Shown here: piece after piece, positions 3,329 to 32,721 of the stretch
Layout: each line of letters begins with the position of its first letter
Numbering within the stretch: the stretch's first letter is position 1
Assembly: GCA_016235555.1 (NCBI GenBank)
Contig: JACRKC010000046.1
Span: 1 to 32,855 of the forward strand
Reading direction: 5' to 3'
DNA length: 32,855 nucleotides
From: Verrucomicrobiota bacterium
GTDB taxonomy: Bacteria; Verrucomicrobiota; Verrucomicrobiia; Opitutales; Opitutaceae
Program-made: the position numbers and the translations under genes
Notes under the pieces: generated by a model
Seen by the model: only the letters and a program-made list of their open reading frames with translations
Database searches by the model: none
What the model was told of the DNA's origin: nothing

Positions 3329-3338
3329 GACGGCGGCG

Positions 3339-3400
3339 GTAGGTCGGGGTTTATCCCCGACAGGTATTTCGCAGGATGTCGGGCGTAAAGCCCGCCCTAC
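3339..3400. repeat. Family C palindrome, copy C2
   Basis: Begins GTAGGTCGGGGTTTATCCCC and ends with CGTAAAGCCCGCCCTAC. Its last bases (3397-3399, CTA on plus, TAG on minus) form the stop codon of the 499-residue gene, so the repeat abuts or has replaced the natural gene end. Confidence 0.85.
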
Positions 3401-18349: not shown

Positions 18350-19741
18350 ATGAGCACTCCGTCCGTCGACACCACCCGGCGCACCTTCCTCAAGCAGGCG
18401 GCCGTCGCTGGCGCCGTCATCGGCTTCCCCGCCGTGGTCCGCGCCGCCCATCCCAACAGCCGCGTCCAACTCGCCACCGTCGGCGTCAGCGGACAGGGCT
18501 TCACCGACGTCCACAACTTCTCGTCGCACGCCAAGGTGAAATATGTCGGCTTCTGCGACATCGACACCTCCTGTTTCGCCAAAGCCGATGCGGCCGTCCC
18601 GGGCGTCCCGCATTTTTCGGATTTCCGGGTGATGTTCGACCAGCTCGGCGACACCGTGGACGCGATCAGCGTCTCCGTGCCCGACCACATGCACGCCCTC
18701 ATCGGCATCGAGGCGATGAAGCGCGGCAAACACCTCTATTGCCAGAAGCCCCTCGCGCACACCGTCTGGGAGTGCCGGCAAATGACCCTCTGGGCCCGGA
18801 AAAAGGGCGTGATCACCCAGATGGGCCAGCAGGCCCACTCCTCGCTCGAATACCGCCTCGCCACGCGCCTCATCCGCGAAGGCGCCATCGGCAGGGTGAA
18901 GGAGGTGCACTCGTGGTGCAACCTCACCGGCAACGAACGCACGCGCATGATCGAGCCGCCCGCGCCCGATCCCGTGCCGTCCGGCGTGAATTGGGAGGTG
19001 TGGATCGGCTCCGCGCCGATGCGGCCGTTCTCGCTCGGGGTGTATCATCCGTTCGCCTGGCGCGACTGGCAGGATTTCGGTGGCGGCTGCGCCCTCGGCG
19101 ATTTCGGCTGCCATGTGCTCGATCCGGTTTTCACCGCGCTCGGCCTTGTGGCGCCGCTCACGATCGCGGCCGACAACAGCGGCATCAACCGCCACGTGTG
19201 GCCGGTGATCGAAACCATCCGCTACGAATTCCCCGGCACCGAATTCACCGCCGGTCCGAAGGTCACCGTCACGTGGACGGATGGCGGGCTGCGCCCCTCG
19301 CGCAAGCTCGCGCAACTGCCGCCCGAACTCGAACTGCCGGCCACCGGCTCGTTGTTCATCGGCGAGCAGGGCAACCTGGTGCTCCCGCACCCCAACGCGC
19401 CGCGCCTCTACCCGGCGGAAAAATTCAAGGGCTTCGCCTACCCGAAGGACCTCAAGGGCCAGAACCACTGGCACCGCTGGATCGACGCCGTCCTCGACGG
19501 CAGGAACACCACCGCGAGCTTCGACTACTCCGGCCCGCTCGCCGAGACCATTCAACTCGGCAACGTCGCCACCCGCGCCTGTCTCCCGCCGAAGCCCAAA
19601 CGCGGGAACAACGCGCAGGGCGCGCGCGAGGTCAACGTGCTCAAGTGGGACGCCGCCAATCTCCGCTTCACGAACAACGACGCGGCGAACGCGCTCCTCA
19701 CGAAGACTTATCGCGCGGGCTGGGCCGTGCCGGCGGCGTGA
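18350..19741 (+). CDS. Tat-exported Gfo/Idh/MocA family oxidoreductase
   Basis: A 463-residue protein with a twin-arginine signal (TTRRTFLKQAAVAGAVIG, residues 8-25), a Rossmann fold (LATVGVSGQGFTDV) and the family lysine in YCQKPLAHTV; the usual Glu-Lys-Pro is Gln-Lys-Pro at 132-134. The segment GDFGCHVLDPVF carries the likely catalytic His. The C-terminus NDAANALLTKTYRAGWAVP is like that of the paralogue at 11459-12838. Such exported members are abundant in Verrucomicrobiota and Planctomycetota and probably act on glycans or polyols in the periplasm. It stands alone, flanked by non-coding DNA on both sides. A long repeat-rich gap follows. Confidence 0.93.
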   Translation: MSTPSVDTTRRTFLKQAAVAGAVIGFPAVVRAAHPNSRVQLATVGVSGQGFTDVHNFSSHAKVKYVGFCDIDTSCFAKADAAVPGVPHFSDFRVMFDQLGDTVDAISVSVPDHMHALIGIEAMKRGKHLYCQKPLAHTVWECRQMTLWARKKGVITQMGQQAHSSLEYRLATRLIREGAIGRVKEVHSWCNLTGNERTRMIEPPAPDPVPSGVNWEVWIGSAPMRPFSLGVYHPFAWRDWQDFGGGCALGDFGCHVLDPVFTALGLVAPLTIAADNSGINRHVWPVIETIRYEFPGTEFTAGPKVTVTWTDGGLRPSRKLAQLPPELELPATGSLFIGEQGNLVLPHPNAPRLYPAEKFKGFAYPKDLKGQNHWHRWIDAVLDGRNTTASFDYSGPLAETIQLGNVATRACLPPKPKRGNNAQGAREVNVLKWDAANLRFTNNDAANALLTKTYRAGWAVPAA

Positions 19742-20163: not shown

Positions 20164-20204
20164 AAACGGAAAATCTGAAAACCACGGGACGTTGTATGAC
20201 ACCC

Positions 20205-20322
20205 GGTGGTTCGGGGAGCGCCCGCGTCCCGCGGGCTGTCCTCGGCGTCTCGCCGAGGACTTCCGAGGTGCCGGCGAGACGCCGACACCAGCACCCGAGA
20301 CGGGTGCGCTCCCCGAACCGCC
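20205..20322 (+). repeat. Family A multi-hairpin repeat, complete copy A2
   Basis: The only full copy. The left terminal repeat GGTGGTTCGGGGAGCGC (20205-20221) and the complement of the right one (20306-20322) agree at 16 of 17 bases. Four 3-nt-loop hairpins lie between: 20220-20236 (loop TCC), 20238-20260 (loop TCT), 20267-20289 (loop AGA, one mismatch) and 20291-20307 (loop AGA). The left and right pairs of hairpins are themselves related by inversion, so the whole unit is pseudo-symmetric. No obvious target-site duplication was found by eye. Confidence 0.9.
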
Positions 20323-20331
20323 GAGCGTTTG

Positions 20332-20356
20332 GTCACCTGTTTCACGAGCTCCAGTA
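20332..20356 (-). repeat. Box D, copy 3
   Basis: GTCACCTGTTTCACGAG followed by CTCCAGTA corresponds to 114-139, at the same distance from the family A right terminus. It is the most diverged copy. An ATACCAATGGC motif follows immediately (20358-20368). Confidence 0.55.
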
Positions 20357-20476: not shown

Positions 20477-20620
20477 GGGTGTGACAGGAAGTGAGTTCAG
20501 TAAACAGAGACCTTGGTTGTAGCAGCGGCGGTCTGCGACCGCCGAACGAGAACCCTTGGCGCATCGCCGGCGGTCGCAGACCGCCGCTACAGCTGGCTGA
20601 CCTCACTTCCGGTTGCACCC
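20477..20620. repeat. Family B MITE-like element, copy B1
   Basis: A 144-bp element. The left end GGGTGTGACAGGAAGTGAG and the complement of the right end GGGTGCAACCGGAAGTGAG form terminal inverted repeats of about 25 bp. Internally TAGCAGCGGCGGTCTGCGAC is mirrored by the CCGCCGCTAC arm, with the centre GAACGAGAACCCTTGGCGCA. Copy B2 at 23771-23910 is nearly identical in the centre. It has no coding capacity and is probably mobilised in trans, if at all. Confidence 0.88.
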
Positions 20621-20627
20621 GTTGGTA

Positions 20628-21386
20628 TCAGAGCTCGCGGGCGCGGATGTTGCGATACCGGACGAGGCCCTTCGAGCGGGCGCCGCCGTGGATTTGCAGG
20701 CCGATGTGGCCGCGCGCGGGATGCACGGACGTCGGTTCGGTGTGCTGCAGGATTTGCACGCCATTGACCCAGGTCGTGACCGTCGGCGGATCGCCGACGA
20801 TGCGCACGCGGACTTCGTTCCAGTCGTTGACGTGCCAGAAAAATTTCCACGCGTCCGGCAGCACGGGGCAGCGCTGCGGATGGTCGTTGAGCGTGATGAT
20901 GTCGGGCGTGGGACCGAAGGAGTAGTTGCGCACACCGCGGACCTTCCAGATGCGCTCGCCGAGGATGCCACCGATGGTGCCGTTTTCGTAGTAGTCGATC
21001 AGGCACTGGTAGGCGGCGCCTTCGACGGTGCAGCGCGTGAAGATGCCGCTGTCCATGCCGAAGTCGTTGCGCGTCTCGAGCGCGATCTCGACGTCGCCGA
21101 ACTCCGCCCCGGTGAGCAGCAGCCCGCCGTTGTTCGGCGTATCCTGGCTGCCGACGATCATGCCATCCTCGACGCGCCAGTGACCGGCCGTCGTGTGGTT
21201 GCTGGCCGTGCTGTGTCCGCTCTTCGCCGTGGGTTTCCAGCCGGCGAGGGAGCGGCCGTCGAAGAGGGACTGCCAGCGGCCGGCCGGAGTCGGGGAGGAG
21301 CCCGGCGCGCCGGCGGCGCGGGCGACAAACGTGGGCGCGACAACCGCCGCGGTGAGGCAGCGCAGGGCGTGACGACGGGTGATCAT
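20628..21386 (-). CDS. Exported DUF1080 (3-keto-glycoside lyase/hydrolase-like) protein
   Basis: A 252-residue protein with a Tat-like signal (TRRHALRCLTAAVVAPTFVARA, in part) and one concanavalin-like DUF1080 domain (PF06439) from residue 38: SLFDGRSLAGWKP, WRVEDGMIVGSQ, FGDVEIALETRNDFGMDSGI, WNEVRVRIVGDPPTVTTWVNG and GHIGLQIHGG. In Bacteroides thetaiotaomicron a DUF1080 enzyme cleaves 3-keto-glucosides made by a Gfo/Idh dehydrogenase. The upstream genes here are an AP-endonuclease-2-fold protein and a Gfo/Idh dehydrogenase, so the same pathway is plausible. The stop codon is the TGA of a TGATACCAAC motif (20621-20630, minus), adjoining repeat B1. There is no Shine-Dalgarno before the ATG at 21386. 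Confidence 0.9.
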   Translation of the reverse strand: MITRRHALRCLTAAVVAPTFVARAAGAPGSSPTPAGRWQSLFDGRSLAGWKPTAKSGHSTASNHTTAGHWRVEDGMIVGSQDTPNNGGLLLTGAEFGDVEIALETRNDFGMDSGIFTRCTVEGAAYQCLIDYYENGTIGGILGERIWKVRGVRNYSFGPTPDIITLNDHPQRCPVLPDAWKFFWHVNDWNEVRVRIVGDPPTVTTWVNGVQILQHTEPTSVHPARGHIGLQIHGGARSKGLVRYRNIRAREL

Positions 21387-23770: not shown

Positions 23771-23910
23771 GGGTGAAACCGGAAGTGAGGTCAGCAAACA
23801 GTGCCTTGGTTGTAGCGGCGGTCTGTGACCGCCGAACGAGAACCCTTGGCGCATCGCCGGCGGTCGCAGACCGCCGCTACAGCTGGCTGACCTCACTTCC
23901 TGCTGCACCC
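23771..23910. repeat. Family B MITE-like element, copy B2
   Basis: A 140-bp element with ends GGGTGAAACCGGAAGTGAGG and GGGTGCAGCAGGAAGTGAGG (complement of the right end). Its internal sequence is almost identical to B1, apart from a 3-nt deletion in the left GCGGCGG arm. It fills most of the gap 23688-24018; the remaining 108 bp to the alcohol dehydrogenase stop codon contain G+C-rich sequence without a recognised feature. Confidence 0.88.
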
Positions 23911-32466: not shown

Positions 32467-32721
32467 CGCCGCACCACCGCCAACCGTGCCTGTCGCCCGA
32501 TTTGGTTGCTGCTGGGAATCCCCGCCTCGCTCGCGGCGCCGGCGACGCGGGCGACCGACGCGGCGCTGACGCTGGAGTGCACGGCGGAGGCGCTGGTCGT
32601 CGAGTTTCACGACCCCGCGGCGGTCGGCGACAGTGGGCGTGCGCAGGGCGGTCTCGTCGCAGTCTCGCCGCACTCCGCGGTGGGCATCCGGTCGTGGTTC
32701 CGCGTCATGTCCACCTACTGA
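32452..32721 (+). CDS. Short secreted-type ORF, probably truncated
   Basis: 89 residues. A basic start (MNNSPRRTTANRACR) precedes a hydrophobic stretch WLLLGIPASLAAPATRA that resembles a Sec signal peptide. The rest (AALTLECTAEALVVEFHDPA onward) has coding-like third positions but no recognised domain. The stop codon TGA (32719-32721) lies inside box D of repeat copy A3, so the original reading frame may have been cut by the repeat. No Shine-Dalgarno is visible. It may be a gene fragment. Confidence 0.4.
   Translation: MNNSPRRTTANRACRPIWLLLGIPASLAAPATRATDAALTLECTAEALVVEFHDPAAVGDSGRAQGGLVAVSPHSAVGIRSWFRVMSTY

Follow-up and report, generated by a model that had tools for sequence, protein, structure and literature searches.

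The 32,855 nucleotides of DNA analysed here (the window) make up contig C6 in its entirety; the contig comes from a Verrucomicrobiota bacterium of the family Opitutaceae, whose genome (G000) is an 8.03 Mb draft in 140 contigs. Between two convergent genes, a GFO_IDH_MocA gene ending at position 19741 (+) and a 3-keto-disaccharide hydrolase gene at 20628-21386 (-), lies a 118-nt unit bounded by inverted ends, GGTGGTTCGGGGAGCGC and GCGCTCCCCGAACCGCC, that match at 16 of 17 positions and enclose four adjacent triloop hairpins (Table 1). This layout, proposed by a first-pass annotation of the sequence, is borne out. The three copies which that annotation counted in the window are all present, two of them being cut by the contig ends, and both ends of the contig lie inside these further copies. 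The limits that it gave to the unit delineate a real core but are too narrow, as most copies extend to TA/CTGAG...CTCAG/TA, the slashes marking the borders. In the copy at 20205 the left outer arm is decayed or lost, with a remnant at about 20197-20204. As single-stranded DNA, positions 20205-20322 fold with z-scores of -9.3 (+ strand) and -7.8 (- strand), and 0 of 200 shuffles were as stable on either strand. The multi-arm fold that had been anticipated is the minimum of the - strand, which has four arms, but not that of the + strand, in which hairpins 2 and 3 pair together into one long arm; four arms are therefore not the sole fold. As to the suggestion of a tRNA-like or other structured RNA, ARAGORN detected no tRNA in the window and Rfam gave no match there at the gathering score. 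Two other kinds of repeat were observed in the window: a second palindromic family of about 102 bp adjoining the copy studied (20519-20620 and 23809-23910, 95% identical, with GTAG-like ends), and short GTAG-REP-like repeats made of GTAGGTCGGG... palindromes (2514-2582 and 3333-3400).

Table 1. Features of the window (plain positions) and related loci in other genomes (locus handle and positions).
Feature	Position	Detail	Basis
REPIN heart: two inverted 54-nt modules and 17-bp inverted ends	20205..20322	modules 20209-20262 (+), 20265-20318 (-)	covariance model, 79.9 and 76 bits; folds
Left-half hairpins	20226..20262	~20220-20236 (7 bp, loop TCC), ~20238-20260 (10 bp, loop TCT)	sequence, module structure
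Right-half hairpins	20265..20307	~20267-20289 (10 bp, one mismatch, loop AGA), ~20291-20307 (7 bp, loop AGA)	sequence, - strand fold
Right outer arm (IS-like terminal repeat)	20323..20354	ends CTCCAG, then TA at 20355-20356	
Second copy, cut by contig start	1..137	most of heart and intact right arm ending CTCAG, TA at 138-139	
Third copy, cut by contig end	32718..32855	opposite orientation to copy at 20205; intact arm beginning CTGAG, TA at 32716-32717; most of heart	
alaS frames carrying RAYT and modules (five genomes, four genera)	L242:1239-4601, L243:1180-4662, L244:1368-4769, L254 (G040), L133/L263 (G002)		
In-frame RAYTs in non-alaS genes	L245:1403-3751, L247:1280-3436, L248:1480-3672, L251:1514-5236		
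Similar arms around different palindromes	L373, L374, L377, L378		

The two inverted 54-nt modules of the core are free of gaps and have the same organization. Each starts with a head, CGGGGAGC (start consensus NNYCGGGGAGC), followed by a 7-bp hairpin, one base and a 10-bp hairpin, both loops being mostly TCY. Pairing was assessed in an alignment (A1) of 28 module sequences, picked by hand out of 88 units from a lax script, some of the 88 being chance matches. In this alignment 97.9% of 476 cells are paired, a figure slightly flattered because one real module with two broken pairs lies outside it. Of the 17 pairs, 11 show changes on both sides; cells with both sides altered number 85, compared with a mean of 25 for shuffles and at most 15 for slid structures. 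A covariance model (R1, E <= 1e-4) gave matches to the module in 34 of the 200 family genomes, spread over 21 of 49 genera; with the strict filters used, and at most 28 candidates scored per genome, the counts per genome are lower bounds. A DNA pattern search of genome contigs returned at least 62 stretches, 61 of them titled as Verrucomicrobiota groups among the matches listed, which include three labelled Akkermansia muciniphila as well as the isolate Chthoniobacter flavus Ellin428. Compensatory change, high copy number and a wide, patchy occurrence thus answer two reservations of the first-pass annotation, that the stems might not covary and that the copies might be confined to this contig. 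The core consists of palindromic units paired in inverted orientation and recurs many times in the genome; with the RAYT that adjoins its module in five relatives (see below), it is a REPIN of the RAYT type, and it has no GTAG tag: the unpaired GTAG tetranucleotide is absent from the module end in A1, where the head is CGGGGAGC.

In the genome under study, the aligned copies begin with TA/CTGAGGCTCGC...GTGACA and end with ...TGTCAC...GCGAGACTCAG/TA. The outer-end pattern, with up to two mismatches, occurs at 145 places (68+77), about 100 of which are among the matches listed, and its reversed control at none. The spacing between the two ends is a constant 153-154 bp wherever both were found, which gives an element of about 179 bp. 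The 118-bp unit, previously taken for the mobile unit, is therefore mostly the heart of this larger element in its own genome, and the reservation that it might be part of a larger known IS end proved partly justified, the arms around the heart resembling insertion-sequence ends. In 68 border rows, where nearly every copy is counted once per strand, the left border reads T in 61 and A in 59 and the right border T in 61 and A in 62; TA is thus present in about nine rows out of ten, and a TA borne by the element would look like a target duplication. Some copies have TA at one border and CA or TG at the other. The loci fetched from this genome, a sample biased by the use of arm or core matches to fetch most of them, show the core next to 90 of 91 distinct outer ends and a damaged core at the remaining one; armless REPINs were recognized by eye at two loci, L221 and L223. 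BLAST scored 40 of 188 candidates, too few for an exact copy number. The contig ends of G000 (C5, C6, C20, C21, C25, C26 and others) often lie inside the repeat, which makes it a main cause of assembly breaks and its copy number hard to give.

The search for empty sites was based on 32 distinct copies with unique DNA on both sides. Their flanks were fused, leaving zero, one or two TA at the join, and matched against masked loci of the same genome. For 9 of the 32 copies, the joined flanks match an unoccupied repeat across the junction. Seven of these match best with one TA (L175, L026, L171, L174, L010, L176 and L048), a result that an element-borne TA would score alike, and two with no TA (L167, gapped, and L060). 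The clearest empty site, that of L175, spans 76 nt at 87% without a gap and scores 93.3 bits versus 89.7 for the other joins, and that of L010 is identical over 23 nt; the L048 match is weak and partly to its own flank, and several of the one-TA matches are short. On sequence grounds, two TA and a single TA carried by the element would have the same appearance. The copies at L010, L174 and L026 sit in the loops of other palindromes.

The terminal inverted repeats forming the outer shell are 31-39 nt long, CTGAGnCTCGCnnnATnnnGTGACA. The REPINs at the loci fetched from G040, G130 and G092 stop at the head, with unrelated flanks and no arms, which shows that the outer arms belong to the expansion in the genome studied here. 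The arm pattern (up to two mismatches) was found in 19 of the 200 family genomes, this one included, with seven matches in G201 and four in G016; since the reversed control has one match in each of eight of the 200 genomes, single arm matches may be due to chance. The seven matches of G201 are all at contig ends, lack this core and are all bordered by CTCAG/TA. They are of two kinds, three continuing into the start of an open reading frame and four into the end of one, DLTAVGRELRRGLKRITAHRTLPHSFLRHTGLLL* or its last part, and the two kinds apparently belong to one element that looks like an insertion sequence. The C-terminal fragment has weak tblastn matches (E 1-6) to plasmid records, with a transposase feature at the matching place in 9 of the 15 listed, one being of the IS630 family; in both of the records examined, the fragment matches the C-terminus. 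The 28-aa N-terminal fragment gave no plasmid match, and profile searches with the two fragments gave no IS630 match and nothing relevant. No intact arm-bearing insertion sequence was found in the searches of this genome or G201. A search with the G201 end returned three ends, the C119 remnant and short arm-only matches in G000. Three candidate partners were discarded: the only DDE_3 gene of this genome (C11) has a broken frame and no arms, the locus of the G201 DDE_3 gene on C246 has neither arms nor end sequences, and the G201 C119 sequence is a truncated remnant, beside a gene which we take to be hemA. Similar arms enclose other palindromes in three other genera, namely in G016, where C77 and C104 have the same heart, and in G173 and G002. 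The partner arm has 2-3 mismatches in G016 and 5 in each of the other two. Inspected by eye, these hearts comprise one pair headed GTGG with a TCC triloop, another pair of GTAG type and one long inverted repeat. The REP of the G016 heart was not found near the RAYT of G016 C44.

The module also borders a transposase gene. In G002, a Y1_Tnp gene runs straight into a module, its other side being cut by a contig end. In G066, G105 and G092, the same RAYT sits between two inverted modules spaced by about 480-490 bp, and in G040 it has modules on both sides, so that it is flanked on both sides in four genomes and on the visible side in the fifth. Of the 200 family genomes, these five and no others yielded close relatives of this RAYT in a protein search, at 68-77% besides the query itself; the other matches at E <= 1e-15 reach at most 46%, the best of the genome under study being 44%. 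These proteins of about 160 residues all carry the MPDHVH and Y[IT][VL][DNE]NP motifs, that is, the HUH (HxH) and Y...NP signatures, as given in PMC6006769. The three proteins scanned score 75-78 bits with NCBIfam NF047646, just below its cut-off of 80; Pfam PF01797 is above cut-off in G002, is listed for G092 and is absent for G066 and G105 at E <= 1e-5. On the evidence of dN/dS, which could be computed for nine of ten pairs and ranges from 0.12 to 0.29, with dS of 0.77-1.48, near saturation, the RAYT of the five relatives looks to be under purifying selection. The link between a REP/BIME-like palindrome and a RAYT, foreseen in the first-pass annotation, is supported by the half-unit adjoining the gene in five relatives; as to co-distribution, it stops there, no cognate RAYT having been found in the genome studied. 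None of the ten Y1_Tnp loci of that genome has a module above 21 bits (cmsearch), and the RAYTs inspected as possible mobilisers (C56, C139, C18, C59 and C109) have other hairpins. Near each of two RAYT genes of this genome (L121:1911-2567 and L116:1575-1733) lie REP pairs of a different kind, with GTAG ends and triloops reading TCC. Overall, 34 genomes bear the module, and 29 of them, including the one studied here, show no close RAYT at E <= 1e-15; a reading based on RAYT must account for them by loss, gaps or the action of a diverged enzyme.

In all five relatives, alanyl-tRNA synthetase and the RAYT share a single open frame, of 1127, 1164, 1147, 1145 and 730 codons, the last being cut by a contig end. 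The translation runs AlaRS, module, RAYT, module, AlaRS with no stop, and in the three proteins scanned NCBIfam places alaS in two stretches around the RAYT profile. Each of the five carriers has exactly one alaS match. The same loop of alaS holds a short or unrelated stretch with neither REP nor RAYT in 13 of 18 genomes, including the one studied here and G006, of the same genus as G066; among the 18 genomes, whose loops are too diverged, no junction gave a base-exact empty site. In a FastTree tree of AlaRS the carriers occupy three places (G105 with G040, G066, and G092), G002 being outside the tree. G092 groups with the non-carrier G063 (0.99), and G066 with non-carriers at a weak support of 0.44. 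G066 and G105 are 77% identical in RAYT and 75% in AlaRS, a similar divergence that is compatible alike with descent and losses, transfer, or repeated insertion. A search of one literature library found no paper joining alanyl-tRNA synthetase and tyrosine transposase. Several side observations concern the same loci and proteins. In the G040 alaS (L254), a further full REPIN lies in frame behind the RAYT, and the G002 contig ends inside alaS (L133:5500-5638 and L263) enter low-complexity tracts that are probably assembly noise at hairpins. Further RAYTs are embedded in frame in the genes of chorismate-binding enzymes in G005 and G024, in a creatininase-family gene of G002 and in a type I restriction R gene of G031; such in-frame insertion may be common in these genomes. 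In G007, a 791-aa frame (L246:2037-4412) ends in a RAYT domain, the rest having no Pfam match at E <= 1e-5.

Taken together, these data probably describe a nested, two-tier non-autonomous element, a TA-targeting MITE with a REPIN at its heart, dependent on two transposases. Each half of the heart, composed of the unpaired head CGGGGAGC and two triloop hairpins, would act as single-stranded DNA as the substrate bound, and presumably cut, by the cognate RAYT, an HUH tyrosine transposase. The shell would represent the terminal inverted repeats of a TA-targeting insertion sequence, perhaps of the IS630 type, whose transposase, acting in trans, would have spread the composite of about 179 bp, several times into the loops of other palindromes. 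As for the order of events, the REPIN would have entered the MITE rather than the reverse.

A purely RAYT-driven element is an unlikely alternative. The arms would then be part of an enlarged REPIN, a RAYT now lost would have carried all 179 bp as single-stranded DNA, with no duplication of the target, and YTAC and GTAR would be the letters of a cleavage site in or beside the element. The solid link between heart and RAYT fits this proposal, as do the several copies in hairpin loops of other palindromes and those bordered by TA on one side and CA or TG on the other, as if the element brought one TA. The armless REPINs of G040, G130 and G092, which stop at the head, speak against it, together with the heartless arms of G201 from which an open reading frame runs in and the other palindromes found between such arms. 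It is distinctly improbable that the unit is a structured RNA or a regulatory element, such as a terminator or an mRNA stabiliser, kept for its function and spread by chance. The position of the window copy between convergent genes and the compensatory changes in the stems of the module are in keeping with such a role, but a folded single-stranded DNA substrate predicts the same changes, the window has no Rfam match, and the near identity of the copies, their fixed borders and the repaired empty sites indicate mobility. Finally, an assembly artefact or a feature of one contig is barely credible: many outer-end matches do lie near contig ends, but the 32 distinct copies are set in unique DNA, and modules recur across the family and in the Ellin428 isolate.

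The nested reading, a MITE built around a REPIN, shares features with several known systems. TA-duplicating bacterial MITEs of the IS630 or Tc1-mariner type are short, non-coding and high in copy number, with terminal inverted repeats, TA borders and near-identical copies. The present element resembles them in all these respects but has a complete REPIN as its interior, and no autonomous partner with an intact transposase was found in these searches. The biology of REP, REPIN and RAYT, as well as TIRtrons, is described in three papers (PMC3733652, PMC6006769, PMC8266576). Like REPINs or BIMEs with their RAYT (TnpA-REP) and like REPtrons, the heart consists of short GC-rich palindromes in inverted pairs at high copy, with an HUH tyrosine transposase flanked by the same palindromes. 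It differs from them in having no GTAG tag, two hairpins per half-unit and four per REPIN, in its enclosure by IS-like arms in the genome studied, and in the RAYT cassettes lying in frame in alaS. Loops of three nucleotides exist in the REPs of S. maltophilia, according to PMC8266576. TIRtrons, in which a RAYT-like gene (TIRYT) is flanked by untagged inverted repeats, some of them double palindromic and some forming dimeric repeat families, share a GGGGWSAS motif (Di Nocera 2013, PMC3733652). The head GGGGAGCG resembles this motif but departs from it at one of eight positions. Most TIRYTs are assigned in PMC6006769 to the long, HTH-bearing subclass 2.1, whereas the RAYT described here has about 160 residues. 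Palindromes translated inside host proteins are reported in PMC3733652 for the Rickettsia RPE and for intragenic REPs, of which Opitutus terrae has many; in the present case, what is translated within AlaRS is an entire module-RAYT-module cassette.

These results place a REPIN inside what appear to be the ends of a transposon of an unrelated kind and show it spread through one genome, while in three other genera such arms surround other palindromes; a literature search found no paper combining most of the terms for such a nesting. Arms around different palindromes suggest a general travel route for short palindromes. The most surprising by-product is the RAYT lodged in alaS, the gene of an essential tRNA-charging enzyme. 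This bears on why single-copy RAYT genes persist, as the five relatives translate the gene in frame with their alaS, of which just one was detected in each. More tentatively, and with somewhat less than even confidence, the Verrucomicrobiota may harbour modular two-tier elements in which DDE-type terminal repeats enclose exchangeable RAYT-type hearts, so that two unrelated transposases, one for double-stranded and one for single-stranded DNA, would serve each small DNA. The transposase of the heart would be kept as a translated passenger domain of the sole alaS detected, at three places in the AlaRS tree, a safe harbour against deletion.
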